Below the pieces are notes generated by a model. That model was not told where the DNA came from. It searched no databases and worked only from the letters and a program-made list of their open reading frames with translations. A DNA stretch of 44,520 nucleotides. It comes from Saccoglossus kowalevskii. Lineage: Eukaryota; Hemichordata; Enteropneusta; Harrimaniidae. Where the stretch lies: positions 145,746 through 190,265 of the forward strand of contig NW_003112472.1 in assembly GCF_000003605.2 (NCBI RefSeq), written 5' to 3'. Below are positions 3,574 to 44,520 of the stretch, one piece after another. How positions within the stretch are numbered: the stretch's first letter is position 1; every line of letters starts with the position of its first letter. Made by a program: the position numbers and the translations under genes.

Positions 3574-6500
3574 GTAGGTTATATTGGCATTCCGCCAGTT
3601 TTGTTTATTTTTTATTTTCTTTCCCTCACATTGGTCAGTGAAAGTATTGATAAGTGTTATAACTATGAAATGATTTGTATTTCTACATTATGTGTCTTTT
3701 TATACTCGCTATTGTGGTGGTTGTTGCAGCTTATCCCAACTCACATTAGAGGTGAAAAATTGTGTCAAATTCTTTAGCAGGATTATTTTAAATAAATCCC
3801 ACAGCTGTTCCATTTGTAAAAAAAAAAAAAAAACTTGCTCATTCCGAGAGTGATTGTGTACAGGTATATTGCCAAAATTGTTTTTATTTACCTTTTTTAT
3901 CAATAAAAACTAGACATTAAATTTGAATTTTTGCATTGATGTTTTCCGAAAAGTTAGTCAGGAACAGTGATCAGTTTATGTATGTATTTTTCTGCGGTAA
4001 GACAGTTAATGTGATACTAATACTAAACTGTATGCATAAAGACATTGTCAAAGCTTAGTTGAAACACATGTTGTTTTTAATCCATTGATTTTGGCTAATA
4101 ATTAGTTCCCCACGAGTAATTATATTCAATTCATATACCATCACTATTCATTTTTGCTTATTTTTTAAAATCAAAGAATCGTTTTCAATCAATACTAAAT
4201 GAAACTACTCGGTGAAATGAATAAAAGTAACTTTTGTTTATGTCTTGATGCTGTGAATTAGCTAAACAACAGTGATTATACACATGTCCTGCTACGACCC
4301 TGTGTCAACTCTGTATCCCCCCTCACCATATGTTCCTACCCGGTATATATGTGCTAGCCAACAGTCTATTACTCCGCTGTCATGCTACAGTTGGTTTTGT
4401 TTGACATTTTATGTCCTACAGCTAAGCATATGTATTCGTCATAATACCTGAACTCTGGGTCTTAAAGGATTGTCCCATTAAAGCTGCTAATGTCTTGAAG
4501 CAGGTGCCAACGATTATCAATAGCCAGGTTTTATTTCTTCATGCATTTCACTGATTTGACATTCGTGTCCATTCACTGAGACCAAGCAAATTAATGACTA
4601 TAGCAATGAGAGATTTATCTGATATGTGTACACATAATTTGTGTTCGTCCAAAGTGGACATTGTTGTATATTGGATTTACAATTAGTTTACTAGAGTATG
4701 AATGATTTGTTACTGGAAAAAAAAAATCAATTCATAATACACTGGCTACATATGAGAGGGACGGTGTAGTTTATCCATATAAAAGAAAGAAACAACTCTC
4801 ATGATATGGAGATAAGGTCGGATGAGGTCTTGGACAAATTCGTGATTAATTATTAGTATGGATAAAGTGCTGTGTATGTCTTTATCTCATGTAGTCGGTT
4901 GTTTTTGTTATAAAAGTAAAAAATGTACAGTTATTTGATGCTGGTTATTTGTTTATTTCAATACATTTTGTGCAACAGGTGTTGGTTTTAAACTTAAAGT
5001 TGTGAATAATCCTGATTATAAAATAAAAAAAAGTGGAGAAAAAATGTAATTTACCGTAATACTGTTCATTCACGGAGATGCTAAAATTGTGATACCGCAA
5101 TTGTTAAACCACTCTAAAACTCAATGCACTTGCTTATATTGATAAACCTCCTGTAATCTAGGCTTTGGATTCACAGCATCAGTTCATTGTGTGTTCAGTT
5201 TAGACAGGTGAGGTTGTTTCTGTACGAGTTCATCAGTGTATCAGTTCATTGTGTGTTCAGTTTAGACAGGTGAGGTTGTTTCTGTACGAGTTCATCAGTG
5301 TATCAGTTCATTGTGTGTTCAGTTTAGACAGGTGAGGTTGTTTCTGTACGAGTTCATCAGTGTATCAGTTCATTGTGTGTTCAGTTTAGACAGGTGAGGT
5401 TGTTTCTGTACGAGTTCATCAGTGTATCAGTTCATTGTGTGTTCAGTTTAGACAGATGAGGTTGTTTCTGTACAAGTTCATCAGTGTATCAGTTCATTTA
5501 GGTTTTTGGTTTAAGCAGATTGTGTAATTTTGTAAATTATTTTCCTAGGTCTGCATGGAATATATATAGTCAGGATTCTAACACCTAAGTGACTTTTATT
5601 TTTCTATGTATGCCAACTGAATTCTGTTATACCAGTTAGTTATGTGAAAATCAGATGAACCATGTTGTTACAGGCACATTGTAACACTCTCTATCTAATA
5701 TATATATACGTTTGAGTTCTTTCTTCTGTAATAGTAAAAAGTTGTGTACATTCAGTAAAGAAATCATCACAATGGAATACCCCATTGAGATTACTTACAT
5801 GCCATTGTATTGCTTGTAATGACGTCGTTGAATAAACTGGATTTAACCCTTCCTTCATGTCTTGGTTTCAATGTACAAGCAATTTCATGCAACCGTTTAA
5901 GATCACAACAACCTCTTATAAGGCTCTTTAGATTGACATTTCTGTTTTCCAGATCTCTAAAGTGTTTTCTTTTGCTTTTCGGAATGTTAAATCAGTCTAG
6001 GTATTGTCTGTTTTCCTGTGCGTCATTTCTGGGGACATCTCCATTTTAGTATCACTGTTCTACATAATAATTCATTCCACTTGCATAGGTACCTGACTAC
6101 AATGCTAATTACATTGGTATTGTTTTGTTTACTGGATCACAGTGGCCATAAAGATCGCAGTGTGATAAATGTCTTTTAATTACCTGTTTTAATTGTACTT
6201 TGATTGCCCAGCTTCTGATAATTGTGGCTAGAAACAAAAACTAACATAAGCCCTTTAGCTTGGGAATGCTATGTTACATGTAAATTAATGGTAGCAAACA
6301 GTGTATAGGTATGGTAAATATCTTATTTTCGCTTAGAATTTATTTTCGCTGAAAGGATGATTCAGTGAAAATAAAATTTAGCGTTCAACTCATAAAAAAT
6401 CAGTGGAAATAAACTTCATACAAAAGACCCAAAATGTTTTTTCAGCAAAAATTAATTCCAGCTAAGGATGTATGTGTAAATCTTTGCTTTGTAATGTGTA

Positions 6501-15500: not shown

Positions 15501-18500
15501 TTTACAGACGAGCCAAATCAATGGCAAACTAGGATTTAGCAGGCATTGTGTCAATGTCATGCATTAAAGTGTAGAGAATGTTACGTACCTGTGATTTAAA
15601 TCAGAACTAGAAAATCACTCCAGAGAAAGCACAGTACTACATGCAGTAAGTCATAGGAGTCAGATAATGATGTGTGAACATCAACATTCATTTTGGTTAT
15701 GAATTGATATGAAAGTCAGAATATTATTATTAAATATTTTTAAAACGATCATACAGTATCTCTAATATTGCCACTATTATTTTTCAGTGTATCTGAATAC
15801 TTAATGGGTGATTTGGACCAATCACCAACACCGACAGCGAGCATATCTCAGACACGATCTTATGATAATTTATCTTCTCCTAGTCTCAGTTCTGATGGAG
15901 GTTATTTAGCTCTCGATGGCAAAGAACCTGGTGAGTGTTATATTGTAAAACATTGTACAGATTCTTATCCACTAACTTGTCTGGAGGCTTTATTATATCG
16001 TGGACACTCCATAATATTAAAAATTTATTTAAAAACAACAAATTGTTAGTGTATAGTTAGTGTATAATAAAATTAGAAATGCCTAAATCGGTGGTCACTT
16101 TTCATAAAATAAACCTGTACGAAATTTTACCATATTTTTGAAAAATATTGATCAAAACATGATGGTATATTCATTTGGTTAAAAATTATCAAACAAATAA
16201 TAGAAAATACATAAAAATGTGTCAGAAAAATGTGAGTTAATTTTGCATGTCACAAATAATTTCCTTGTACCTCTTAAATAGGTCAAAACCTGTCGTGCAT
16301 GACAAATTTAGTTTTTCAGATATAAATTATACTACTACAGGGAGCTAAATGTACAAGTTCATTTGTCTTTTCATTTTGATTTACGTACTCTCTGTTCACA
16401 GTATGTATGTCGCCAGAGGAAATCGACAACACTCTTTTAGCAAATGAATTAGGTGTGGATCTAGCGTTACAACGAGCCAAAGCATGGTCTAAATATGCCA
16501 AAGATGTCATGTCATATGTGGAGAAAAGAATTCATATTGGTAAGTAAATCAGGTGACCTGATCAGGTGATAGTCATGTGACTTGAGATGTAGTGATAGTA
16601 GATGTTATAATTAATTATAACTGTGATAAGATTGTATTTTTTTTCTTCTTCTTCAGAAACTGAGTTTTCAAAGAGTCTTGCCAAATTGGCTCATACGACT
16701 ATACCAGTATTGGCAGAGGAGGTGAGATTCTACTTTTAATCAAATATATTTTTGATAAATTAATGTCAAGTTTCAGATAAAACAACCTAGTTTGTTTAAA
16801 CAACCATGTTGTGCCTTGGTACTTTTCTATAATTTCTTTTAAAACATAGATGGCTGATAAAATTATAGTAAGGACAATAAAATATGAACATTAAGTGAAT
16901 ATTGTGCAATTTTCATAAAATGTTTAACCAGTGTTTATATTGGATTACAGAGTTATTTGCCATTACAGTCCATATACTGTACAGCGTTACAACAAGACAT
17001 TGAATACGCCCGCAATTGTGAGGTTACGTACAGTCAGATACAAGCGCATAAATTCTTAGAGGTGAGAAACGAATAATCGTCACAGCAATTGTCTAGACAA
17101 TGACGCTATAAACTGACATGGTATAGTTATGCTGCCAATGTTTGTTGAAATTAAATAATTTCAGCCCTTTGACTATGTTCTGTATCCAGAGAGCAAAACT
17201 GCTTTGGTTTTACTATGTTATCTTATCGTTATTCGCATCACTGATTCTTACTGTGTGACAATAGACTGCAGGATATCATTTGTTCATCTGAATGAAAATA
17301 CAGATTGCGTGTTCCGAAACAATAGTTGTACACAGTAATAACATACATTGAACAATAGAACCAAAGGCAATAACACCCAGTCAGAATTCCCATGATGCAT
17401 CACTTCACAGTTTTTTGAAATCAAGTTGAGTATTGACTGTTATTTATTTGATTGTTGTTCGACAGCCTTTGTGTGTGAGGAGAACTGAACATGAAAAGAG
17501 AAGAAAAGAGCTAAAGCAAACGTGGATTCGAACAAAGAAAGAAATGGTGAGTTGGAGTGTTGAACTTCTTCACTGGGTTAAAATACTATTCACCACGATT
17601 CTCAGTTTTTGACGCTTTGTCAATACCCTCACTGGAGGACAGTCCAAAATATTCTTCTTTTTCTATCCATCGTTTTGTTCAAATCTTATAAGTACTGGTA
17701 ATGTCTGTCAAAGTTGATATAGCAAATAAAAAAAAATTTTTTATTTTTTTTTGTGGAAAAACCCATACAAAAGTTTGAGTGTGATTCATTTTTTGATTTA
17801 TTCTAAATTGGAAAACTGGCTGTTCATTTGTAAAAAAAAAAATGCGTAAATTTATGACAGTGATAATATAAGAAATAAGAAAAATTAAAATTTCATTCTA
17901 TTTTGTTGCTGGTTACATTTGTTACCTCTTATCTTATTTTCGATTTGTATTCTAATAAAAACTTTTTTTTTTTACAAGTTGGATTGTAAAGCCAATTTAG
18001 AGAAAGCAAGGCTGTTGTATGTGCAGAAGCAGCAGGATTATGAGAAGGCAAGAGATATGGCTATAAAAACAGAGTCAGATACACTGGGTTCTAGTTCAGG
18101 GCATGCTAAATTAGAGAAAAAGAAGAAAGCAGAAGAAGAGGCACAAAGAAAGGTGAGAAATGAATGTGATATTCATTCCCATTTTATCCGTATCTCTATC
18201 TATCCATCTATATATACTATGTTGTTATATTCATTAGATGTTCATGATTTGAAGATGTTCACAACAAATTCCTCACTGAGGAGATTTTCTGAAATTCGTG
18301 CTGTTATAATTTGTGATATAAAGTTTGGATGATATTACTTGAATATTTGCATTATTTTGATTAGGCCTTATTCTTTTATCATACAGGCAGATGATGCTGC
18401 CACAATGTATAAAGCATGTGTTTTTGAAGCAAATAGGAAACAGGGAGAGATGGAAGATACAAAGGTAAATGGCCGCTTAATATATTCTGAAAATCCAACC

Positions 18501-21500
18501 TCGTCAACTTATATTTAGGCACTTCACATGTTTTTTTGAATGTCTGTACAAATGTATACAAAAATGTCTGTTACGGTACATTAAAAGATGGCTGACCAGT
18601 GTATTTTTGCTTTGTTTGTCTTTTCTGTTGAATTAGTTGACTTGCTTGTATAATTTAAATTAAATACATGCAATACCTTCAGTACTGCTGAACTTTTTAC
18701 CCCCTCATAATAACTGTAAACATAAATTTCTCATTTTTTTTACCACCAACAGAGAGATTTAATCGTCCAACTTCGTGAGTTAATCTATCAATGTGATCAG
18801 ACGATGAAGGCTGTTACTGTTGGATATTTTCAGCTTATGAATTCGTTATCAGCTCCTGCCCCAGTACAGGTAAGTTATAGGGTAGAGATGATGATATCGT
18901 ATTTGCTCTCTTTGAAGCTCTTTTACGACTGGATCATTAAAATACAACTTATTTTGACCATAGACACACCCTTGTGGTTAAGTTAAGCATATGCACTACT
19001 AATAGAACAAATATAGTACATAGATATACATGCCATCCTTCATGGCAATTGTTGTTGCTGAAGAGTAATTAATTATTTTATTGATCTGACCATCAATGTA
19101 GCAACTAAATAATTCACTATGCCAGCAGAAATGCTTTGGTGATTTTAAAATCATAGACAGCACCATTGTGTTGTCTTACACAGCTGACTTGACCACTTGA
19201 AAGTGAAAATGCATGCAACTGTTGCTAGGTGCTATAACACTTCATCACTGGGACATCTTTTGATAGCATTCTAGCTTGTTACCTACTTACGCTCTTTGTT
19301 TTCCGTTTCAGTTTCAAGCACTCAGTGGGCCATGTAGAGAATATGAACCGGGTGCACAGTTTAGTGAATTTATTAGACATCAGCCTGTTGCCCCAAACAA
19401 TAAACCTTCTGAAGCATTTACTTTTGAACCTTATGTTAGTCATGCCAAGGAAAGCCCGTAAGTAGTAACATGTTGTTTTGGCCATTGTTGTTTCCCAGAA
19501 TACATTGCTGCATTCCTCCATCTTCAACTTCCTGAATCTCTGAATTTGCATAACCTCAGAAAAACTTGTATTGAATGTAAATTTTTTTTATATATATTTT
19601 CAGCAGACCTGGTCTTAATCATAGAAGTAGTAGTCATTCAATGAGCAGTACGGGTAGCGGTGAATTATCAGAAGACTGGTTAGCCCGATCAACTCTCAAT
19701 GCTAAGCCTAATCATAGTGGTACAGGTAAGCTACAATATATTTTATAAATTTATGGCAATTAAAAAAAATGTTGAAAAGGTACATGTGCAGGTCTTTTAA
19801 AATTGGGAAGTGTTTATTTGAATGATAACCAGTTTATGAAGATTAAGTCATTTCTTTTGCGAATGAGTCAACTGGCCCATGCATAGCGCCATCTTGTGAC
19901 AGTATTTTTAAATGCTTTTGTTTTCTCAATCTGAACAATATATTAATTATTGTGACATGACAATTATTAGTGTATAAATGATATATTGTCATAATTTCCT
20001 CTTGTCAACAGAGAAATCACGTAGTACATCACAGCCGATCCAGGCATGGAGTCAGCAACAAATCAGTGACAGTGAGAGTGGAAGTAGCAGCCGATCACAA
20101 GACCCATCGCCGTCAGCAAGCCCACACGACTTGAAGCGAAAACTGGATCGAGAAATTTCAAATACTACTATGTCATCAGGTGATGAACTTGGAGATGGTG
20201 AAGAACATCATCCATTGCATATAGACACACGTAAGTCGTGATCAGATTTGGAAATTGTAACGATTCCTTAGTGTTTGCAATTGTGTCTTCAGTTTTGTCC
20301 AGTTTTCTGCAGTGTGTCATCACACCATAACTATAATGAAAGCAAATACTTCACTTGGTATGAAATAAGCCCTCTATAAAACAATTTTTCTAGTTGGTCA
20401 CTAGAGGGTGCAGTTTATAAGGACAGATGAAACCGAAGTGGCATACTGTAAAATACTTTATTTTAGCTGGAATAAATTTTTACTGATAAGATATTTTGCC
20501 TAATTTGTATAAAATTTATTTTCACTAATTTTTAATGTAAAAAATAGTGAAAAAAGATTTTATTTTCACTGTTTCATCCTTTCAGTAAAAATAATGTACT
20601 TAATCAACAGTATACAGTTCAGTGGTTCTAATTTGTTTACATTTACTTTTAATGTTCAGGTCTTCTACCAAGCCATGAAGGGAAATTCAAGAATGTACCT
20701 CAGTCGAAAGCTGCACAGACCCACGTCTTTCGTAAACTGAGAGCATCCTCCAAGTGTCGTGAATGTGACAGTTACGTGTACTTTAATGGAGCCGAGTGTG
20801 AGCACTGTGGAATTGCAAGCCACAAGAAATGTCTGGAGTCTTTAGCTATTCAGTGTGGAGGCAAAAGACTTCAAGGCAAAATGAACGTGTTTGGTGTTCG
20901 GTTAAAGGAACATTTACAAGCGACTGGTAAAGAAGTGCCGTTTATCATCAGTAAATGTATATCTGAATTACAGTATCGGTCACTTTGCGTTAAGGTAGGC
21001 AGAATAAAAACATTCACTTGTAACATTTATGAATAGATATTGAATAAAATATTTACTAGTTTTATCATCATCAGTAAATGTTTGCAGTGAGTGTATAATT
21101 TAAAAAATTTTATTTCTTAAAAAACAATCTGATAATCTAACTCTCAATACCTACTGTCAATAACTTAACTTTCGTGTTTTGATGATTTCATAGCATTTCT
21201 AAAGATAACTGACATGTCATGTTGTATTATTTCAGAAAAATGTCACTGCCGCAAAATTTCACGAATTCAAAAATTTGTCTTGTTAAAGTGAAGTGGTTTA
21301 AAATTGATTGTACATACAGACTGATGTGAATGCTGTATTGTATATTACCACAATGTAACACTGGTTGCCATGGAGACTACCAGGAAATACTTTTTAGTAT
21401 GTCTGCTAATAGTTACTTGTCTTCTGCAGGAAGGGGTATTCATGACTTAGGCAGTAAAATTTGCAGGAGAAAGACCCGTTATTAGCTATTCACATGTACT

Positions 21501-24500
21501 TCTTTTTATCTAACTACTTGTTGTGTTCTGTGCTAACTCGTATACTCATTTCTATCTAGGGTCTCTATAGGGTAGCGCCTGTCAAAGCTAAAGTGGAAAA
21601 ATTGTGTCAGACTTTTGAAAATGGCGCTGATTTAGTTGATTTATCCGATACCCTGCCTCATCTGATAACTAGTGTACTTAAACTCTACTTTAGACAGGTA
21701 AGTTTTATCGTACTTTGACTGCTATCGTAATTTCTCTATGAGAAGCACGTCTTTCAAACTGTACATTCTGGCCCATCTTAACAATTGCTAGTACCCTTCT
21801 AATAGAGATAATATATTACCTATTGACACCATTTTTACATAATACATTTTGACCATCCGGGAAGGTGTTAATATTGTACCACCAAGGGTTTCATATTGCT
21901 AGTACCGGTACTGCTTCCGATACAGTGTATTACTGTAATGTTGTTGACTATGTTACATGCTTAAGGATATATACTGACCTGGGTTTTATGATCAGTCAGG
22001 TCATGTACAGTTAATAAAGTTAGTAACTTATTCTGCATTATTAGCTATAGTTAGTGATTTAAGGGACATGTAATGTATGTTGTAATGCATCATAACCAGG
22101 AAATGAAGGCAATAATTTATAACAGTGTATTAACAAATTCATTGGAAATATACATATTCATGATTATTTATTTTCTTTATTAACCAACCAACAAAACAAC
22201 AAAAGCGCAATTTCAGAAATTGTTTTTTCTTCAATTTAAACGCATTCAAACTTGATCGCATTTTAGCTCCCGGAACCTCTGCTGACATTCCACCTGTACC
22301 CAGAATTCATTGCCATCGCTAAAGAAAGTTTAACTAATTCAAAAGACATGGGGGAGGAAAGAATTGTGAATCTATTAAAAGGAACCATTTCTAAATTACC
22401 AGAAGAAAATTTCAAGACTTTAGCTGTATTGGTTCACCACTTGAAAAGGTAAGGAATAAGTAAATATGCTGCAGAAACTGTACTAATTGAGTTGGGTAGT
22501 AAATTCTACACATTAACCCATTTACCACCAGTTCCCTCATTTCATCACAAAATAGTCCCGTTTATAGTCTGCATTTTTCTTCAGAAGATTAAGACAAAAA
22601 TAGCCAAATTTTTCGAGTAAAAAACGAAAATTGATCCAAATTTTGACAGTTGGTCCAGAAATATTATGAATACAAAAGAAAAATTTGGACGAGAAAGTCT
22701 GGTGGTGAAAAGGTTAATCTTTTGACCTTTGACCACCAAAGGTGACTTTTGTCACTTCTCACAACATAAACTCACATAATTTTCTATATTTCTTCGAAAT
22801 TTGTTATCAAGCAAAATTAATACTAATACATTTTAGGAAAATGTTATACCAAAATTATGGTGGGGAATTATTATTTTAAAAGGTCAATATTGAGTGTATC
22901 TTCTGGAAATTAGTACATATATTGTGTAAAGTAGTGATAAATCTGATGATACAATAGGATTGTGTGTGACTGAAATGACATCTTGGGATAGGGAATCAGA
23001 AAAGCCACTAAAATTCATATTATTTTCTCTGTTAGGGTTTCTGACAACAGTGATTCAAACCTTATGTCTGCTAGTAATCTCGGTATTGTGTTTGGACCTA
23101 CTCTATTAAGACAAAGGTGAGTTATCTTGCACTTTGAACTGTGATGTACAGGAGCACTCTATAGAATCCGTGTTTATATCTCATTGTTTGTGTTAACAAT
23201 TGCTGTTAAAGGCTTTATTCTTTTATTTATTGCAAATTTTTGGGAAAACAAAGTTATTACGAGAATATTGCAAGGTATGCACAAAGGCAGTACGATGATT
23301 GTATCGACTATAGCGTTTAGCAGAGATTAATACATCTCCATACTGCCTGAGTGCATACTTTGCAGTATTCTTATGATAACCTTATTATTATACATCTTTT
23401 CACCACTTGTTGTAATAATTTAATGGAGATAAAGCCCAAATTGACAATGAAGAACGTTTCACATCGTGCAAACGTTTAGCAGAGATTAATGCATCTCCAT
23501 ACTGCCTGAGTGCATACGTTGCAGTATTCTTATGATAACCTTATTATTATACATCTTTTCACCACTTGTTGTAATAATTTAATGGAGATAAAGCCCAAAA
23601 TGACAATGAAGAACATTTCACATCGTGCAAACGTTTAGCAGAGATTAATGCATCTCCATACTGCCTGAGTGCATACTTTGCAGTATTCTTACGATAACCT
23701 TATTATTATACATTTTCAAATATGGATGACATTCGAACACATCCATACATCATTTTCTGAACGGATACATTCTATTGTTTTCGATATTTATTTATATAGG
23801 TAATTACAATCTATATTATTTCGGAATAGGTAGTGATAATTTGTGTTCTTAAGTCTAATGTTTATTTTGTGTATTCTGCTTCACAGCAGTGAAGGTGCGG
23901 CCACACTAGCATCCTTGGTTGACACACCACATCAAGCAAGAACTGTGGAATTACTGATTCATAACTGGCAGGTATGTGTTATTATGACTTATAACAGATT
24001 ACTGCTTTGATTTTTCAATCATTAGCATATTCTTATATAAGAATACAGAGAAATACGTATGGTTCTGATATACCGTTCGTACCTTAAATTGCTTATCCTA
24101 AACTTTTTTTGACAACTATGAAAGAATGGTGGGAAATCATGAAAAATTTCAATGAGACTTGACTTGACTCTATTATCTTGGGAAGTCTTTAGTGTGAACA
24201 TCATTAAACATGGGTTTAGTAAATTACCTGTAATGTCTGACTGATGAAAAAAAAAAAAATTTCTAATCTGAACTACGGTACCTTACCTGGTTTTGAAATG
24301 CTTGTAATCAGAACCACAATATTTGATGTTGTTGGCCTAATGTATTCCTATATGTGTTTAAGACTGCACAATGGCTGTGTTTGATATAAGTCCCATGCAA
24401 CATGTGTTTAATACCTTGTTTTTGCAACCTTTGAACACAGTGTTGACTGTGCTCCCAGGTTTTAACAAGGAATGCAGTTTACTTCAGAAAATATTTTAAT

Positions 24501-26124
24501 TTCCGAGTAAAGGAAAAAAAAAAGAAGCTTACATTATAGTCGTTCTTTTTTTTATAGATATTTGGAATGCCAGAAGAAGACATTAGCAGTAGAGGAATTG
24601 AAGTGCCAACAACCGAATCAACTGATGGTAAGTACTTATCAATGATCATGCATGTATTTTTGTTTTTACCTCAATGTAACACTGGTTGCCATGGAGACTA
24701 CCAGGAGATACCTTTAGTATATTTCCTGATTATTCTTGTCTTTTTCAGGAAGGAGTATTCATCGACTTAGGCGGTCCAATTCACAGGAAGAAGACCCCCC
24801 ATCAGCCTTCAGTAGATCACCCAAATTTTCGTTGACAGGCAGTCATGAGAATAACAATGTTGCCATGATTGCTCATGATTCTGGAGATGATGGAAGTCTT
24901 GATAACAGCTCTTTGGGTGAACCAACACCCCGGCTAACAGGTGAGAGCAGATAATCTTATTTTAATTTAGGGTTTTTTTGTAACTTGTTTTTTCTGTCCC
25001 TGATGTAATGTTTCATCAAAGCTGATATACTGTGATGCAACTACTTGTTCTAATTCTCTATTACGTCATTGAAACATTAGAGAATCATACATTGATATAG
25101 TGATCATGAAAACATCTTATTACCGGGGTATACAGAGAATCATACATTGATATAGTGATCATGAAAAACATCTTATTATACAGAGAATCATACATTGATA
25201 TAGTGATCATTAAAAACATCTTATTATAGTTATGAAATTTGGTAAAATGGAATTCATATTTTACAAACAAAATTAATGTAAAAATTAAGGAAATCAGGGG
25301 CCACAACATTTTTGTTTGTGCCTGAAATTACCTATAAAGGCACATACAATTTTATTTGTTTCTTGGGCACCCACATCCCCAGCATACAACAAGTTTTCAC
25401 AACTTGATTTAGGGGGATTCCATTGTGACTTGGGGGGGGGGAGTCCCCCAAAAAATCAGTTCTGTTAATATCGGGTACACTTTCCTGAAGCTACTGGTGA
25501 ATTATTTGTGAAATAAATGAATACTAGAGTTGCCTAAGTTCTCCTCCTTTTTGGTATTTAACTACTTTCTCAAAGCTATTGTGTATACTGCTTTTGCTTT
25601 TGTTACAATTATTGATAGATTTATTATTTTGTTCTGCAGGTGACCATGGCGATGATTCTGGTTCGGAGGATGAACATCCAACGGATTCAGATGATGATGA
25701 CGTGGTCGTGCCAGTCTCAGCCAAAAAAGTACCACCACCGAGAAGACCAAAGACAAAAAACTTTACTAGTTCACCAGAACTAAGTCATACCACTGTGTCA
25801 CAATCTAGGCCAATACAAACTGTGAAACAGACGGCCTTATCCACTGCCTGTTATGTGCCGAGTAAGACTACACAAAGTGGGAGACCATCCTCTCAATACA
25901 CTACAACAGAATCTCAGGTTATTCCAAAGTCAAGGACATCTTACATGGCAGCGGGTAACAACAGATCACGGGTATCTACAGGGTCATCTGTTGGGTCAAG
26001 TTTGGACGATGATCTGTCAGGATCAACTGGGAGTATACCCGGTGTGTCTACTACACCACCCAGACCACTGCCTCACCAGACATACAGCCCGTCTCAGACA
26101 AAACGTGAACCTAAATTTGTGTGA
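3408..26124 (+). CDS. ARHGAP29: F-BAR/C1/RhoGAP protein, ARHGAP29/ARHGAP45 (HMHA1)/GMIP family; 22 coding exons, complete
   Basis: Rho GTPase-activating protein. Joining exons 3408-3573, 14614-14757, 15323-15404, 15788-15930, 16402-16539, 16657-16721, 16951-17061, 17466-17546, 17979-18152, 18387-18464, 18753-18869, 19312-19457, 19604-19725, 20012-20230, 20660-20994, 21560-21697, 22267-22448, 23036-23116, 23887-23971, 24558-24627, 24749-24940 and 25640-26124 gives one 3354-nt frame (1117 residues), with GT-AG ends and compatible phases at every junction. Domains: F-BAR-like coiled region about 180-430; Ser-rich linker about 470-595; C1 zinc finger 617-661 (H617, C628, C631, C642, C645, H650, C653, C661); RhoGAP about 670-870 with arginine finger R711; acidic/Ser/Pro tail; C-terminal PKFV, like the PDZ ligand by which human ARHGAP29 binds PTPN13. 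The C1 and RhoGAP core resembles ARHGAP45 as closely as ARHGAP29, so it is probably the single pre-duplication gene. The family binds curved membrane and switches off RhoA; applying that here is inference. Confidence 0.94.
5180..5500. repeat. 62-bp minisatellite, five units plus a partial
   Basis: Units beginning cagttcattgtgtgttcag start at 5180, 5242, 5304, 5366 and 5428, with a partial one at 5490. The first four are identical or nearly so; the fifth has two substitutions (gacagatgag and tacaagttc). Such homogeneity means recent expansion, so copy number probably varies between individuals. Confidence 0.95.
6309..6470. mobile_element. MITE-like palindromic repeat, degenerate copy 2
   Basis: tatggtaaatatcttattttcgctt at the left and aaaattaattccagctaagg at the right resemble the two ends of the family at 1353-1520. 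Both termini are eroded. Confidence 0.55.
8468..8590. mobile_element. MITE-like palindromic repeat, fragment
   Basis: Contains gaataaagtattttac, then gatgaaaggataaatctgtg and gttcaactcatcaaaactca, internal sequence shared with the copies at 6309 and 30357. The right end is missing. Confidence 0.5.
12777..12925. mobile_element. MITE-like palindromic repeat, copy 4
   Basis: Interior sequence ctgatttttgatgagttgga and ggtatatttgctgga matches the copy at 1353. The right terminus (gcgaaaataaagtattttac, then agta) is intact; the left one is degenerate. Confidence 0.65.
13163..13826 (+). mobile_element. Tandem-repeat element family 1, complete ends, with assembly gap
   Basis: Head: an imperfect hairpin of AGCTCCGCT (13169-13177) with AGCGGAGCT (13191-13199), then a gtcgtcgtc microsatellite (about 13216-13246), then the start of a unit like that at 171-250. 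The Ns follow. The tail after the gap repeats that at 560-650: gctaacagcggagct, then hairpin CAGCC-AATA-GGCTG (13807-13820) and CTTGTT. The layout (terminal hairpin, microsatellite, core tandem repeats, 3' hairpin) is like Helentron-associated elements such as mollusc pearl elements; assignment is inference. Confidence 0.75.
13329..13704. other. Assembly gap (376 Ns)
   Basis: The gap lies inside a tandem-repeat element, so it most likely hides further core units and its true size may differ. Frames reading through it are artefacts. Confidence 0.98.
14272..14410. mobile_element. Small palindromic element, TACTGTAAAC type
   Basis: Ends TACTGTAAACTGCTTTTATTTT and aaaattaaacagtttaca are inverted relatives. 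It shares the TACTGTAAA start with the larger MITE family but differs inside. It lies about 200 bp upstream of exon 2. Confidence 0.6.
14614..14757 (+). CDS. ARHGAP29: ARHGAP29-like exon 2
   Basis: Acceptor tttttttttcag; donor gtatac. Residues about 56-103, including HERLKELLHILRNVLNKY and AAVILISQIK. This matches the N-terminal helical block of human ARHGAP29 that precedes its F-BAR region. It is the first exon with clear family similarity. Confidence 0.92.
15323..15404 (+). CDS. ARHGAP29: ARHGAP29-like exon 3
   Basis: Acceptor tctctgtag, donor gtgagt, phases 1 to 2. Encodes GFTSEYDSEDHTEFYNAIDQ followed by LALAFSS, the counterpart of the human block containing NFTEV and SSIETLAFTF. Confidence 0.93.
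15788..15930 (+). CDS. ARHGAP29: ARHGAP29-like exon 4
   Basis: Acceptor tatttttcag, donor gtgagt, phases 2 to 1. Begins VSEYLMGDLDQS, aligning with NFLMGDVGN of human ARHGAP29. The rest is a Ser-rich linker ending DGKEPG. Confidence 0.93.
16402..16539 (+). CDS. ARHGAP29: ARHGAP29-like exon 5 (start of F-BAR region)
   Basis: Acceptor ctgttcacag, donor gtaagt, phases 1 to 1. Contains SPEEIDNTLLANELGVDLAL and RAKAWSKYAKDV, aligning with the PLELDNVLL...YAKTWSKYTKNIV helix of human ARHGAP29. Confidence 0.95.
16657..16721 (+). CDS. ARHGAP29: ARHGAP29-like exon 6
   Basis: Acceptor cttcttcag, donor gtgaga. A short helical exon: ETEFSKSLAKLAHTTIPVLA then EE, the F-BAR segment equivalent to the MVKLAEATR region of the human protein. 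Confidence 0.94.
16951..17061 (+). CDS. ARHGAP29: ARHGAP29-like exon 7
   Basis: Phase 0 at both ends; acceptor ttggattacag, donor gtgaga. Begins SYLPLQSIYCTALQQDIEYA, matching EFMPLQSLFTNALLNDIE of human ARHGAP29. Confidence 0.95.
17466..17546 (+). CDS. ARHGAP29: ARHGAP29-like exon 8
   Basis: Phase 0 at both ends; acceptor ttcgacag, donor gtgagt. A 27-residue basic helix (PLCVRRTEHEKRRKELKQTW...), the counterpart of PLLGRKNEMEKQRKEIKELW. Confidence 0.95.
17979..18152 (+). CDS. ARHGAP29: ARHGAP29-like exon 9 (coiled coil)
   Basis: Acceptor ttttttttacaag, donor gtgaga, phase 0 at both ends. Strongly helical: LEKARLLYVQKQQDYEKARD, then GSSSGHAKLEKKKKAEEEAQ. This is the family's KAKLLCMQRQDEYEKAK...EKKRRLEEEA block. 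Confidence 0.96.
18387..18464 (+). CDS. ARHGAP29: ARHGAP29-like exon 10
   Basis: Phase 0 at both ends; acceptor atcatacag, donor gtaaat. Encodes 26 residues continuing the coiled coil (ADDAATMYKACVFEANRKQG...), matching EANELYKVCVTNVEERR of the human protein. Confidence 0.95.
18753..18869 (+). CDS. ARHGAP29: ARHGAP29-like exon 11
   Basis: Phase 0 at both ends; acceptor accaccaacag, donor gtaagt. Contains LRELIYQCDQTMKAVTVGYF, the counterpart of LRTLVFQCDLTLKAVTVNLF. This is the end of the F-BAR-like region. Confidence 0.96.
19312..19457 (+). CDS. ARHGAP29: ARHGAP29-like exon 12
   Basis: Acceptor ttccgtttcag, donor gtaagt, phases 0 to 2. Contains CREYEPGAQFSEFIRHQP, equivalent to KLYDPGQEYSEFVKA in the human protein. 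The remainder is linker. Confidence 0.95.
19604..19725 (+). CDS. ARHGAP29: ARHGAP29-like exon 13 (tandem NAGNAG acceptor)
   Basis: The acceptor reads ttttcagcag, so splicing after either CAG keeps the frame. The downstream choice (start 19607) would drop one Arg. Encodes a Ser-rich linker (HRSSSHSMSSTGSGELSEDW). Donor gtaagc, phase 1. Confidence 0.92.
20012..20230 (+). CDS. ARHGAP29: ARHGAP29-like exon 14 (Ser-rich linker)
   Basis: Acceptor cttgtcaacag, donor gtaagt, phases 1 to 1. Contains ISDSESGSSSRSQDPSPSAS and TMSSGDELGDGEE, the counterparts of FSDSESTGGSSESRS and TMSSADDLDE of human ARHGAP29. It is probably a phosphorylation-rich hinge (inference). Confidence 0.95.
20444..20600. mobile_element. 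MITE-like palindromic repeat, copy in intron 14
   Basis: Left end TACTGTAAAATACTTTATTT then tagctggaa is intact. The right part (cctttcagtaaaaataatgt) is eroded. Its right edge is about 60 bp upstream of the C1-encoding exon 15. Confidence 0.7.
20660..20994 (+). CDS. ARHGAP29: ARHGAP29-like exon 15 (C1 zinc finger, start of RhoGAP)
   Basis: Acceptor taatgttcag, donor gtaggc, phases 1 to 0. Holds the whole C1 domain with spacing H-X10-C-X2-C-X10-C-X2-C-X4-H-X2-C-X7-C. The first spacing is shorter than in diacylglycerol-binding C1 domains, suggesting an atypical, non-phorbol C1. It then runs into the RhoGAP N-terminus (VPFIISKCISELQYRSLCVK). Confidence 0.97.
21351..21480 (+). pseudogene. Decayed duplicate of ARHGAP29-like exon 21 and its upstream intron
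   Basis: caatgtaacactggttgcca and tggagactaccagga are identical to 24672-24706. The similarity runs through the acceptor (ctgcag, 21424-21429) into the exon (gaaggggtattcatgactta versus gaaggagtattcatcgactt). A missing base and other changes break the frame, and the copy fades after about 50 exon bases, with no donor. It lies in intron 15, so it is a dead partial exon duplication. Confidence 0.85.
21560..21697 (+). CDS. ARHGAP29: ARHGAP29-like exon 16 (RhoGAP arginine finger)
   Basis: Phase 0 at both ends; acceptor ttctatctag, donor gtaagt. Begins GLYRVAPVKAKVEKLCQTFE, with R711 as the expected arginine finger. It continues to SVLKLYFRQ, part of the conserved LKLYLRQLPEP helix. The usual Gly two residues after the V of RV is Pro here. 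Confidence 0.96.
22267..22448 (+). CDS. ARHGAP29: ARHGAP29-like exon 17 (RhoGAP core)
   Basis: Acceptor gcattttag, donor gtaagg, phases 0 to 2. LPEPLLTFHLYPEFIAIAKE and LPEENFKTLAVLVHHLKR are the standard RhoGAP helices that contact the GTPase. Confidence 0.96.
23036..23116 (+). CDS. ARHGAP29: ARHGAP29-like exon 18 (RhoGAP core)
   Basis: Acceptor tttctctgttag, donor gtgagt, phases 2 to 2. VSDNSDSNLMSASNLGIVFG then PTLLRQ holds the invariant NLGIVFGPTLLR motif, including the Asn conserved in active RhoGAPs. Confidence 0.97.
23253..23380. repeat. 40-bp inverted repeat with 48-bp loop in intron 18
   Basis: The left arm 23253-23292 and right arm 23341-23380 are reverse complements at 33 of 40 positions. 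Four of the mismatches are G-U compatible in RNA, so the transcript could form a long hairpin. Confidence 0.8.
23314..23712. repeat. 159-bp tandem repeat, about 2.5 units, in intron 18
   Basis: Units beginning cgtttagcagagattaat start at 23314, 23473 and 23632 (period 159 both times). They are almost identical. Each contains the right arm of the inverted repeat at 23341-23380; the left arm was not amplified. Confidence 0.93.
23887..23971 (+). CDS. ARHGAP29: ARHGAP29-like exon 19 (end of RhoGAP; NAGNAG acceptor)
   Basis: Acceptor ttcacagcag: two in-frame choices (start 23887 or 23890) that differ by one Ser. Encodes TLASLVDTPHQARTVELLIH, matching SLSSLVDYPHQARVIETLIV of human ARHGAP45. Donor gtatgt, phase 0. 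Confidence 0.95.
24558..24627 (+). CDS. ARHGAP29: ARHGAP29-like exon 20
   Basis: Acceptor tttttttatag, donor gtaagt, phases 0 to 1. Begins IFGMPEEDIS, directly following the RhoGAP domain, and opens the tail. Confidence 0.9.
24749..24940 (+). CDS. ARHGAP29: ARHGAP29-like exon 21 (tail)
   Basis: Acceptor gtctttttcag, donor gtgaga, phases 1 to 1. Encodes a basic stretch (RSIHRLRRSNSQEED) and an acidic/Ser-rich stretch. RRSNS resembles a basophilic kinase or 14-3-3 type site (inference). A decayed copy of this exon's start lies at 21430. Confidence 0.92.
25079..25236. repeat. Short tandem repeat, three units, in intron 21
   Basis: agagaatcatacattgatat occurs at 25079, 25134 and 25182, followed each time by agtgatcat and aacatcttatta. 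The period is 55 then 48 because an insert (ccggggtat) is present only in the first unit. Confidence 0.85.
25640..26124 (+). CDS. ARHGAP29: ARHGAP29-like exon 22 (last; PDZ ligand)
   Basis: Acceptor ttgttctgcag, phase 1, 161 codons including TGA at 26122. Low-complexity acidic start (SGSEDEHPTDSDDDD), a Pro/basic patch (VPPPRRPKTKN), a Ser/Thr-rich body, then KREPKFV at the C-terminus. The last four residues (PKFV) resemble PQFV of human ARHGAP29, the known ligand of PTPN13 PDZ4. Confidence 0.95.
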
Positions 26125-30668: not shown

Positions 30669-31663
30669 TCACCTGGTTGGGTTGTAAAGGATATAACTAA
30701 CTAATTTAGATGGCAGAGGCAAAGAATATACTTTGTTAGCCGGAAAATGACGTAGAATTGTCAAACGACAGAAATGTTGCAAGTTCAAGAACCGAGGCAG
30801 CTGCCATATTCGAATGTAGCCATCTGCACTACACACTGCAAGTTGTTCACCACTGTGACTAAATGAGAGTCGGATTATACACGGGTAGCCATTAGGCATT
30901 GCTCCCATGCCATATTTTGGATCCTGTGTATCTGGATTCAGTTTGTAAGTAATGATACCACTCTCAGTGTTGTACATTAGAATCTCAGTGCTGATCGTTG
31001 CTACGGCAAGAAGATTGCCATCATGTGTGTATTTCAAGACTTCTGCTGCCCCAACATCAATCGGGAGTTCCTCATCAAGCACACACTGTTCGGTTTCCAG
31101 ATTGAATACCCTGAGATGTTTGTCTGAGGTAGAAAATGCCAGCATTTTGTAATTATACCGAGGATCAAAGTCGTACGTTCTGGCATCCTCCAATAACCCT
31201 TTACTTAGAGATACAAGACCTGGGGTGACGAGTCTATACAGTGCTAGTCCATCTCTCTTCACTACAAACAGTTTACCGAATGATGAACTAACTGCAATAA
31301 ATTTACTATTCGGTGAAAACGTACATTCCACATGATCTGAATAATTGGCGGTGCCGACAAAATTCGGGCAGATGTTGTGACAAAAGACTGCTTCATTGGA
31401 GCGTAAATCAGGCAAATATGCAGTAGCCAGCTCAAAGTTGTTTCCGACTCTCATCAGTATCGCCACAAACTGGCCATTCGGTGCAACTGCACAAAAGCGG
31501 AAATTGCCCATGCGTAGGTCTCGTCGTTTGACATCCCTGTGAGCGTCTTTCAGACTCTGTGTAACCATTTCTCCTCTTCCTATATAGCATAGATACTTTG
31601 ATTCTGGCGAAACCTGACAGTGTGGCCAGGTTGCACTTCCCCGCTGACATAGCAATGTGGAAT
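30669..31663 (-). CDS. WD40-SOCS protein, last coding exon
   Basis: Encodes 330 residues ending ...LPLPSKLVSYILYNPTR and TGA. The open frame continues past 31663 to 31814, but a good acceptor (tgctttcttctaatag, minus strand) and the loss of protein-like sequence mark the true boundary. Holds the later WD repeats and the whole SOCS box. Confidence 0.9.
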
Positions 31664-32595
31664 CTATTAGAAGAAAGCAAATGGAAAGTGTAATATAAGT
31701 GAACTGAGTTCTTATTTTATAATATATCTTCCCATTTGCAGGTACAAATGTATATTCATACATGTATGAGGCAAAAAGCCCTTGTGAAATTTTGGGATCA
31801 CTATAAATCATCAAAATTTTACCCAGAATGAATAAATTGTTAAGTGTTTGAAAGGGAGCATTTAGGGTTTGTGAGAATTATCAGTATTCTCGAGTGGAGC
31901 TACGTCACAGAAGTTTCTACATTACTAAGACATGCACCACTGTACCATGTATCTCTATAGACTCTGTGCGAGCTGCTGTGGAATGTCTGTCAAAGAGCCA
32001 GTGTAAAAGTCAAGCAAACAGCACAAACTAAACAATGAAGTAATCCTGAACAACTAAATTTATATATGTTGTTACCTTGTTCAAGGCAGTCTCAACAACT
32101 ATACCCAATTACAGTTTTCTGTGAGTTTGTTTTCACCATGATGGTTTCCAGGTGAAGAAAATGCATGGATGTCCGCCCCCAAGAAAACACATATTTCTCT
32201 ACACTCACCTGCTGGTTGTGTGCTTAGATTCCATAAACTAATCCGTCCTTGCACATGTCTATGTGCACCAGTTATTGTTCTACCTGGTCTTGGTACATAC
32301 ACGCCAACACTGGTGAGTAACTGTGAGTCATCACCAGGCATAAATTGAGCATAAGTCCACCATAACAAATCCTGAGTCTGAGACCTCCAATCAGATACGC
32401 TGGGAACTGGATCTAGTTTTAGGACTACTCTTCCGGCATCTGGAGCATAACTGGTGGTGTCATCGAGACGGCTATCATCTTCTTCTGTAATCTCTAAAGC
32501 GACAACTTCTGGAGATGCAAATTCTGGGAAAGGTTTCCAGGGAAAATTTGGTACCTGTCTTTTACATCCATCATATACAACAATATTACCCATCA
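30669..32595 (-). CDS. WD40-repeat protein with C-terminal SOCS box (WSB-like), last two coding exons
   Basis: Probable substrate receptor of a Cullin-5/Elongin BC ubiquitin ligase. Coding exons 32209-32595 and 30669-31663 join in frame across a GT-AG intron (phase 1; GCA G|gtgagt, then ttcttctaatag|AT TCC). From the ATG at 32593 the product has 459 residues. WD40-type strands are visible as GRISLWNL, KLFVVKRDG, KHLRVFNLETE, ILMYNTESG and GYIRIWQLPRF. Residues 418-459 form a SOCS box: LQHFCRLTI (Elongin BC box) and LPLPSKL (Cul5 LP-x-P box), ending as in WSB1/WSB2. The middle does not resemble WSB1, so I do not name it. MGNIVVYDG at the start looks like the inside of a WD repeat, so upstream exons are probably missing. 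The target is unknown. Confidence 0.85.
32209..32595 (-). CDS. WD40-SOCS protein, penultimate coding exon
   Basis: Encodes about 128 residues from MGNIVVYDG to NLSTQPA, with an acidic insert (EITEEDDSRLDD). The donor gtgagt is clear. The 5' boundary is uncertain. It could be an acceptor ctcctgttttttaaaag ending at 32596 (internal exon, phase 1), or ttttttttattgtag ending at 32621 with ATG 32593 as the start, since an in-frame TGA lies at 32618-32620. Confidence 0.78.
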
Positions 32596-32620
32596 CTTTT
32601 AAAAAACAGGAGCCATTTCA

Positions 32621-36058: not shown

Positions 36059-36396
36059 ATGGTTGAAGGGGTGGTTATCGATGCAGGACTAAAATTTGAA
36101 GGTTTCCACAACAAGCTGATGGAAGACGTGCATGAAATAGACTGGTTAAATGATGGGGACCTTGACGACAACTTTCCGTTCATCCATCGCGTGGACTCGT
36201 CGCAGATTATATATTCCCCGAGAAAAAAGCGGGCGAAACTGATAGGAAAATACTTGATGGGGGACACTTTAGGGGAAGGATCTTATGGTAAAGTTAAAGA
36301 AGTTTTAGACACAGAAACATTATGCAGGCGAGCTGTAAAAATCTTAAAGAAGAAGAAATTACGCAAGATTCCGAACGGAGAGACGAATGTGCAGAG
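36059..36396 (+). CDS. STK11: STK11 exon 1
   Basis: Residues 1-112 plus two bases (phase 2), donor AG|gtactg. Includes [20 protein letters not shown], nearly identical to the human protein, the glycine loop and the catalytic Lys. The first 40 residues are divergent and acidic. Reading past the donor leaves the family similarity at once. Confidence 0.97.
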
Positions 36397-39300
36397 GTAC
36401 TGTCAGTGTTTGTTTATGTTGAGTTGCGTTGCGCTAAGTATATTATGTATTTATTTTACGATTTTAGAATGATTAAGATTATTAAGCTGATGCTCATGTT
36501 TGTATTGTTTACTCACTTTGCAGGTTCTAAACAAGTTGTTTCATTGAGTACATTGGGGGCGTGGTAATCTAATCTAAGCGGAACGTTTCTTTAGAGCGCA
36601 ATACTATCGAAGTCAACGATGAGAGTTTCAAATGCAATTAGCACACGTCACACACGTGGCCTTGATGTGTTTTGTTTACAATCAGTTAAGCTGTACGTGT
36701 AGGTCGTTACGTCAAACAATATCAAATAAATAAATAATGTAATGAAAACGAGGACATTTAACATAGTAGGCAGGTGTTTCAATTAAACGTTCATTATTCA
36801 TCTATGGTTGAAGCATAGCTACTAAGTTGAAGATTATAGGTGATGCAAGAAAACTGACACCAAATGTGATTTCATTCTAATGATATTTTGTCTACTGGGG
36901 TACTATGTGCAAAAATCTCATCATTCATGTTAAGTTGTCAAATTTTTTTATTTGCTTTCAGAGAAATCCGATTACTTAAGAGGCTTAAACATAAAAATAT
37001 TATTAATTTGGTAGAAGTACTTTATAATGATGAAAAACAGAAGATATATCCTTTTTTTGCGTTAAATATTGACAATGGCTGATAGGTTATCATATTTGAG
37101 ATGTGTTGACATCGCAACTTACGAATATCTCAAAGAATCTCCAAATGTTTTTGCGTTGACTATCCAACCAAAGTACACACATAAATTGTAATGTTATTTT
37201 CATGATAGTGTTCATTTGATTTGTTGTCAACAAAATAACTCCATATGCTACCCAAGCTGGTGCAGTGACCTTGCTCTTTAACAAATTGCTTGTGCTGACT
37301 TTTTTTTTTGTGGAGGAAGTCAGCGAATGTACCACACCTTTTCTTATCAGGTTACTAAATAGAAAAAAAAAATGTCATCTTTCTTACATCATACTAGTAG
37401 TCGCTCAAAGTTCAGTCACCTGACAAAACTTGATTTAGTGCCAAGTGGGACTTCCCCTATCTTTTTGGGGGGCAAATTGAATCAGTGCCAAGTGGGACTT
37501 TGCCTATCTCTTTAAGGGTCAATCTGAAAATGCTGGTGTCAGTAGAGGTGAAATGCTTATGTTCTACCTATGAAGGAAACAATAAAACTTTGTCGGAGTA
37601 GAAATGATAAATTACATGAAGTGGTTTCAAGGCTTGTTAGGATGTTGTATGATCGAGTGTCGGCCATTTTGTTTTAGAGAATGCAGTTTCAGATCCATAA
37701 ATATATCCAACGTGCCTGGACCAATCAAGTTGAAACTTTACACACACATCAGACAAACATACTTGCATTTTTGTCACAATCAAATCAAAAATAGCTGATT
37801 AGTAGAATATCTATAATACAAACTAGGACTATTTATTGACAGTGATTGTAATGAGATTTTTGGTTTGTATGTGCTTCTAAGTTCTATTGGAGAGTCGCTT
37901 ATAATAGAGCAAATATGGTAGTTGTTTTCCAGACGTACTTTTATACACCTAATGAAACTGAAAAATGAAATTGTGTTCTTTTTGGATGTTTATGGTATTT
38001 TTTTAAAATCTGCTATTTCCATTCTGCAGTAAAATTATCTGAAATTCTTCCATTAATTGGAACATAAACAAAAAAATCATCACAATTATATTTTTTGAGT
38101 GGTTTAAATTATTTGGTTTTAGTCATAACATGATTGTAGAGTTTAAGGATGTCAGTAATTTCTAACAGAAATTGTGTGAAACATGGAAACAAAACTTAGA
38201 AATACTCAAAGTTGTAATTAGTTTTTATTTCTGTCAAGAAGAAACATTAAGATGGATTGATAGCATATGAATGTGTTAATTTGCTAGAGGACAATAAAAA
38301 ATTTAACATAATCAGGTGATTAAAGTAAAAAAAGATTTAAACTAATTTGATTGTGGTGTTATGCTGCAGTCATTTAATTTTAGATGTGACAACCATTTTT
38401 TTGTGAGTCAATTCGTTTGAAATAAATGATAGAACTAAAAATCAAACAAATATTTGATATTAATATAATATTCAATTGTAAATGTTAAAAAAACATGTCA
38501 GATTAATCAATATTACATTGTATTATCGGTAGTAGTATTTAAGTTCAGAACCAGCTTACCATAAATGCAAGTTTTGTTTTGTGTGCGCTTCACTTAGAGA
38601 ATTTCTTCTAATATAACAAATGCTGCATATTAATTAAAGTGCCAGGTAGTATACATAAACATTTTAAATGTGTAATATTATGTTATGTGGGGCTAATATC
38701 GCAATGTGGTATTTTCAGCCATGGCTAGATTTGATATTGAATACACATATCGTTTATATGTTAATTGGTTTAACTGTTGTAATGTATTTGCTAGAAGACG
38801 CTCATCTGAAGCAAAATAGCTTTTTTTTCTATACTGGACCTTTAAAATAAAACTTAAATTAAATCTGTCATTTATTTTATCCGTACATGTGTATGCACTA
38901 CTAATAGTGCATATATAGACGGTAGTTGTGAATGCGGCGACAATTTGCATTAATTTTTAGATGAAGAGTATATTTATGCTATAATAATAATCCTAATTAT
39001 TGCTCATAATTGCAGTATGAATTAGAAATATCTTATTAAATTATGTGTTGAATTCTGAAAATTGATACATTATGATAAAATGCATTGTTTGTGATTGATT
39101 ATATTTTTTCGCTTTGTTGCTACATATTCTATTAACAATTATTCATTGGTGCGACTCAAAAGATATGTCTGATGTACTATCTGAGGATTTATTATTAATG
39201 AACCCATTTTGATTGATAGCAGCAGTATGACATAAACCTTTCTGATATGAAACCATTTATCTGAAACTACTCGGTTACCGGTAATGGTTATTTTTAGAAC

Positions 39301-40214
39301 TCACTGTATTTCTTTCAGTGCTCTGCAATATTGCAACAAGATTGTGTAAAATTTATTTCTCAGCGTGGCTTATCTGAAATAATAAATGTGAAAGCAATTT
39401 ATTTTATTATCTTCTTATTTAGAGTGTCTTGACATTGTGCACATGTTGTGATGCCATTTGTCATATATCTTTAAGGTAGAATGCTACACAATAGCAAAAA
39501 TAATTGCCTTTTTTTTATTACATATTACATATTTAGTATGGTAAAATGCTTTATTTTTGTTGGAATTTATTTACGCTATTTTCACTGATTCATTGAAAAT
39601 AAAATCTAGCAAATATTACTTTTTTGTCTATATTTTACATTCAACTCGTTAAAAATCAGTGAACATAAATTCAATTTAAAACACTCAAACAGTTGTTTCA
39701 ACGAAAATTAATTCCACCTAAAATAAAGTATTTTACAGTATATGTTTAATACAAAAATGAAGAAAATGTGTTATAAAAATATAGGGTCACCATACTAGTT
39801 TTAGAAAAAATTAAATATAGAAAAAATAGCATGTTTTGTCTGTTGACAAAATATAGTTGCTGCTATATGTATAAGTAATAAACTTGCGTATCATTCTACC
39901 TTGGAATGCATTGCACCATGATGATGCAGACGTTTGCTGTAATCAGTGGTGATTGAAGTGGAAATTTAATAATGACACAAAAGTGTGTTTAGTTTCTGTG
40001 TGCATTTTTTCAACAAATTTTGGAGAACAGAGATACATACATATAGTATGTGTATTTAATTGTGGAGTTTTAGTTGTGCATGAATATTGAAAATTGAATT
40101 TTTTCTTAACCTTATTTTTTTTACGTATCTTGTCATGGAATACTGTGTTGGGGGTTTGCAAGAAATGTTGGACAGTTGTCCGGACAAGAAATTTCCCATA
40201 TGGCAAGCTCATGA
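36059..40214 (+). CDS. STK11: Serine/threonine kinase STK11 (LKB1), exons 1-3, 3' end outside the window
   Basis: Master kinase upstream of AMPK and related kinases, active with STRAD and MO25. Exons 36059-36396, 36962-37045 and 40125-40214 give residues 1-170 plus two bases. The start has G at -3 and +4, with in-frame TAG at 36053-36055. Features: PRKKRAK (54-60), matching the human nuclear localisation region; glycine loop LGEGSYGKV (G72-G77); catalytic lysine in RRAVKILKK (K94); helix C Glu E114 in [13 protein letters not shown]; hinge [13 protein letters not shown]. Exons 2 and 3 are 84 and 90 nt, the same as in human. The N-terminus is about 16 residues longer than human. The HRD and DFG exons are not in the window: about 4.3 kb after exon 3 has no exon 4. 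Confidence 0.97.
36397..36961 (+). other. STK11 intron 1 (U2-type)
   Basis: 565 bp, gtactg...ttgctttcag. No repeats seen. A CACGTG lies near 36652 (acacacgtggcc). Confidence 0.85.
36962..37045 (+). CDS. STK11: STK11 exon 2 (84 nt)
   Basis: Acceptor atttgctttcag. Encodes [20 protein letters not shown] then YNDEKQK, counterpart of human [27 protein letters not shown]. It ends in the middle of the next Met codon (AT|G), exactly where human exon 2 ends. Confidence 0.96.
37604..37800. repeat. Family 2 repeat fragment in STK11 intron 2
   Basis: gtgcctggaccaatcaagtt and gaaactttacacac match 43255-43283 (atgcctggaccaatcacatt, caaacttcacacaa). gtcggccattttgttttaga is also like family 2 core sequence. 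No ends are recognisable. Confidence 0.6.
39537..39740. mobile_element. MITE-like palindromic repeat in STK11 intron 2
   Basis: Left end tatggtaaaatgctttattt then ttgttggaatt; right end ttccacctaaaataaagtat then tttacagta, inverted to each other. The interior attcaactcgttaaaaatca is shared with other copies. It ends about 360 bp before the U12 branch site. Confidence 0.75.
40125..40214 (+). CDS. STK11: STK11 exon 3 (90 nt)
   Basis: Encodes [20 protein letters not shown] then KKFPIWQAH, matching human [29 protein letters not shown]. Donor GA|gtaagt, phase 2 as in human. It follows an AC acceptor, so ordinary gene finders will tend to miss it or move its start. Confidence 0.96.
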
Positions 40215-44066: not shown

Positions 44067-44520
44067 GACCCCCGTGTGCGAAGCACAAAAGGGAGTCTTT
44101 GCAGTTACCCTGTCTGTATGTATGTATGTATGTATGTCACTTTTTTTGTTCCCACCGTTATCTCAAGAACCACTAATCAAATTTTCGTGAAACTTGGTAC
44201 ATAGATGCTCTGGGATGATGCCAGAGTTGATTAGGTTTTGGTAAAAATCTATGAATATTAATTACCTAATTTGCATGATAATTAGCTGATTTTTAGCTGT
44301 TCCAAGACTGTTCCACTGATATCTGAAGAACCACTCATTGGATTTTGATGAAACTTGGCACATGGATGCTCTGAACTAGTGCGCAGATTTGATTAGTTTT
44401 GGGTAAAAATCTATGAATATTAATTACCTAATTTGAATGATAATTAACTGATTTCAAGCTGTTCCATGACTGTTCCACTGATATTATGAAGAACCACTCA
44501 TTGGATTTTGATGAAACTTG
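44067..44520 (+). mobile_element. Tandem-repeat element family 3 (about 162-bp unit), left part
   Basis: Starts directly after the end of family 2: GACCCCCGTGTGCGAAGCAC, where GTGC-GAA-GCAC is a head hairpin. Then come a (TATG)n microsatellite (about 44117-44140) and units beginning aagaaccact at 44165, 44326 and 44489 (periods 161 and 163). It runs off the window. Non-autonomous as far as seen. Confidence 0.75.

Follow-up and report, generated by a model that had tools for sequence, protein, structure and literature searches.

The STK11 Locus and Its Surroundings

The window, i.e., the whole 44,520-nt stretch of Saccoglossus kowalevskii DNA analyzed here, is part of an assembly of 572 Mb in 4,830 contigs. 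On its plus strand, beginning at 36059, it carries coding exons 1 to 3 of STK11/LKB1, which together encode a joined peptide of 170 residues. The exons, the introns between them and the splice signals of intron 2 are as follows.

36059..36396, plus strand: STK11 exon 1, coding part; 338 nt counted from the first ATG, extent of the 5′ UTR not included; the joined peptide aligns to human STK11 (8vsu_C) from query residue 23
36397..36961, plus strand: intron 1, ordinary U2-type GT-AG; donor GTACTGTCAG, acceptor TTTGCTTTCAG; 5 donor mismatches to the U12 consensus
36962..37045, plus strand: STK11 exon 2; 84 nt, 3′ end AAG AT
37046..40124, plus strand: intron 2, U12-type AT-AC, phase 2; 3,079 nt
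37046..37055, plus strand: U12-type 5′ splice site ATATCCTTTT; 0 mismatches to RTATCCTTT; the only plus-strand [AG]TATCCTTT in the window
40102..40110, plus strand: U12-type branch site TTTCTTAAC; branch A at 40108 or 40109
40123..40124, plus strand: 3′ terminal AC, end of intron 2
40125..40214, plus strand: STK11 exon 3; 90 nt, starting G TAT and completing the split Met codon
40215..40223, plus strand: intron 3 donor, ordinary GTAAGTATA; 5 mismatches to the U12 donor consensus

The acceptor of intron 3 was not found within the window. Upstream of STK11, exon-like pieces of a protein with C1 and RhoGAP domains were detected at 20653-22452 on the plus strand, the C1 match being weak and below the cut-off. 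We take these pieces to resemble the ARHGAP45/ARHGAP29 family, and human ARHGAP45 and STK11 are both located at 19p13.3; the C1-RhoGAP gene upstream of STK11 may represent an old linkage. The open frames 17919-18332, 19978-20241 and 25579-26124 near these pieces matched no Pfam family, and neither did the minus-strand frame 32099-32596. Also upstream of STK11, on the opposite strand, 30669-31814 encodes a protein of WD40 repeats that ends in a SOCS box and for which a further search gave weak WD40 matches only. Rfam yielded 0 matches in the window at gathering scores. Tandem repeats were observed at 1-598 from the very first base (157-nt unit, or 311-nt), at 5178-5498 (62-nt unit, 5.2 copies, 99% matches), at 23314-23713 (159-nt unit) and at 44147-44520 (162-nt unit), the latter reaching the end of the window.

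Identity and Integrity of the Gene

The joined peptide of exons 1 to 3 was compared with the chains of the Protein Data Bank, among which human STK11 chain 8vsu_C was matched with E = 7.3e-69. Within this collection, the two STK11 chains (7.3e-69 and 3.6e-57) were clearly ahead of the next, non-STK11 kinase (2e-15), as would be the case for the N-lobe of an STK11 orthologue, and 42 of the 58 residues encoded by exons 2 and 3 are identical to human STK11. The gene had been named STK11 in a preliminary description, and the distance between the first E-value and that of the next kinase bears this out. A Pfam kinase search of the genome listed no place on the contig of the window, which is expected because the domain is cut by introns; the frame 36059-36472, comprising exon 1 and some intron, reached 21.4 bits compared to a Pfam kinase cut-off of 31.7.

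The remaining kinase domain and the C-terminal region (exons 4-9) were searched for by tblastn in the window plus 40 kb beyond it, the latter being mostly N, and no match was obtained at E up to 1; the sole match of the wider search in the same sequence was a chance one with E = 8.6. These missing exons might be explained by a decayed or partial STK11 copy, in which intron 2 would be a relic no longer spliced. Nevertheless, exons 1 to 3 are open frames that closely resemble human STK11, the splice signals are good in introns 1 and 2 as well as at the intron 3 donor, and most of the 40 kb beyond the window consists of N, so that the absence falls mainly in unread sequence. We therefore regard a decayed copy as highly unlikely.

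Position and Reading Frame of Intron 2

Intron 2 starts with ATATCCTTTT, ends with TTTCTTAACCTTATTTTTTTTAC and has a GC content of 29%. With AT and AC as its terminal dinucleotides the flanking exons are joined in frame, and the peptide across the exon 2/exon 3 join reads ...NDEKQK-M-YLVMEYC..., the conserved Met codon of KMY being split AT|G, i.e., after the second base. The exon 2/3 junctions are fixed by homology to STK11, independently of any splice consensus.

To obtain the alternative joins, donors at 36990-37119 were combined with acceptors at 40040-40169. Within these ranges, 25 joins are in frame and free of stops, namely 10 AT-AC, 7 AT-AG, 5 GT-AC, 2 GC-AC, 1 GC-AG and 0 GT-AG, and KMYLVMEYC is restored by 37046/40124 only. 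An ordinary U2-type intron with GT-AG (or GC-AG) ends at slightly shifted sites, for which the AT-AC signals would be coincidental, has on its side one GC-AG pair, 37078/40162, which is in frame and stop-free, whereas no such GT-AG pair was found. However, the GC-AG join swaps the conserved MYLVMEYC for intron-coded residues. Both kinds of shifted join were thus rejected in the ranges tested, and a U2-type intron of this sort is extremely improbable. For the intron 37046..40124, the coordinates, the flanking exons of 84 and 90 nt and the in-frame K-M-Y codon given in the preliminary description proved to be exact.

The interior of intron 2 contains a head-to-tail duplication of a 47-nt unit (37427-37520, 81% identical), and the repeat search of the intron gave only this duplication and inverted pairs of 72-86%.

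Minor-Class Splice Signals of Intron 2

Introns of the U12 class carry the donor RTATCCTTT and the branch site TTCCTTAAY, the latter 8-21 nt before the 3′ end. The donor of intron 2, ATATCCTTTTTTTGC, shows 0 mismatches to this consensus and conforms to [AG]TATCCTTT, whereas the branch motif TTTCTTAAC differs from the consensus at one position. Downstream of its second A (40109), 15 nt of the intron remain, and 14 nt separate the end of the motif from the end of the intron. Donor, branch site and AC terminus are hence all intact, in agreement with what had been noted earlier for this intron.

To estimate how often such signals arise by chance, sequences were drawn from a first-order Markov model of intron 2 itself and scored against these consensus strings. 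Donor 9-mers with 0 mismatches occurred in 8 of 300,000 draws, and 366 of 60,000 draws had a branch site with ≤1 mismatch 8-21 nt before the fixed AC end, giving a joint chance of ~1.6e-7 if both are independent. Furthermore, we scanned the 273 AC or AG dinucleotides of intron 2 whose ends lie 60 nt or more from the beginning of the intron; only one is preceded by a branch site (≤1 mismatch, 8-21 nt upstream), and this is the proposed end. A chance match as the source of the signals was rejected on these grounds. The other introns of the same gene served as controls: 5 mismatches were counted in each of the donors of intron 1 (GTACTGTCA) and intron 3, and 3 in the best intron 1 branch site. 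On the minus strand of the window, [AG]TATCCTTT is matched at 30694 and 3493, the former probably being coding sequence since it falls within the WD40-like open reading frame 30669-31814.

Terminal AT-AC dinucleotides alone do not define the class, as stated in two articles (PMC2831892, PMC3584512), and AT-AC introns of sodium-channel genes are spliced by the major spliceosome. That intron 2 belongs to this U2-type group, with which it has the terminal dinucleotides in common, would fit the T-rich tract preceding AC. Downstream of the branch site, the tail CTTATTTTTTTT is rich in pyrimidines, and U12 introns are described in PMC3584512 as lacking such a tract; this counts against the U12 class, though the whole intron has only 29% GC. 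On the other hand, U2-type AT-AC introns, including those of sodium-channel genes, have G at +5 according to PMC2831892, whereas intron 2 of STK11 has C at this position, and both its donor and its branch site fit the U12 consensus. The U2-type AT-AC class was rejected for this +5 base, and splicing of intron 2 by the major spliceosome has next to no chance of being correct. Membership in the minor class, in contrast, is well supported by the signals in the sequence.

From this class we infer that the transcript is spliced at 37046/40124, that a working minor spliceosome, as put forward in the preliminary description, is present in this species and that it removes intron 2. As is established for minor splicing in general, U11 would pair with the donor ATATCCTTTT and U12 with the branch site TTTCTTAAC, one of the two adenosines being bulged, and U6atac, U4atac and U5 would complete the complex. 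The cut would then fall 3′ of the AC at 40124, and AT|G would be joined to give Met.

Retention of intron 2 would add 12 intron-coded residues and then a stop inside the kinase N-lobe, and failed minor splicing would therefore remove the kinase domain. Slow minor splicing of this intron might in addition act as a conserved brake on LKB1. We consider this rather unlikely; if true, LKB1 levels in human and in the present species alike could be set by the rate of splicing.

Age and Spread of the Minor Intron

A survey of minor introns already covers more than 3,000 genomes, and minor-intron densities on a par with those of the richest modern organisms are reported as likely for the ancestors of animals, plants and fungi; enrichment was also noted in molluscs, Lingula and others (PMC10639083). 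The U12 class of STK11 intron 2 is thus the expected case for an animal that kept its minor introns, and it adds no new mechanism. Among the literature matches listed, general surveys were present, and no title or abstract opening dealt with intron 2 of an invertebrate STK11. Among minor introns, conversion to the major class is reported to be less frequent for the AT-AC than for the GT-AG subtype (PMC2831892). The minor intron of LKB1 seems not to have been kept in all animals: it is apparently not universal, since LKB1 is absent from the 18 row names visible in the table of 19 Drosophila melanogaster U12 introns (PMC2831892).

Comparison with Known Introns

Within the U12 introns, the GT-AG subtype has the same TATCCTT core and branch site as the AT-AC subtype and differs in its termini, which are AT-AC here. 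In human, the AT-AC subtype accounts for about 26% of the U12 introns and the GT-AG subtype for 68% (PMC7367187, Table 2).

The closest known counterpart is intron 2 of human STK11, for which the primary paper is reportedly that of Hastings et al. 2005. The human intron is called U12-type in PMC12366057, and its signals are quoted as auauccuu...ac in PMC5387049, where an A>G substitution of the first intron base is described in Peutz-Jeghers syndrome. According to the variant names given in PMC12366057, the human Met125 codon is split at c.374/375; in the present gene, the equivalent of Met125 is likewise split after base 2. Both introns thus have in common the gene, the codon Met125, the phase, the donor ATATCCTT and the AC end, and the identity with human in class, terminal dinucleotides, position and phase that had been put forward in the preliminary description was confirmed. 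On this sequence comparison, intron 2 is almost certainly the orthologue of human STK11/LKB1 intron 2, inherited as a minor-class AT-AC intron at the same codon and phase.

The basis for conservation is two genomes, the present one compared with published statements on human. It represents one clean data point for dating a minor intron relevant to disease, for which class, subtype, codon and phase agree with human. An ancient dependence of LKB1 on the minor spliceosome had also been suggested; the old position of one conserved intron stands, whereas a functional need for minor splicing is not implied by it.

The two introns differ in length, with 3,079 nt here compared to 823 bp given for the retained human intron in PMC12366057. 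There, c.375-10A>G is described to block splicing and to result in intron retention and a frameshift, which suggests that the human branch A is located 10 nt from the exon, whereas the candidate branch adenosines of the hemichordate intron are found at -16 and -17.
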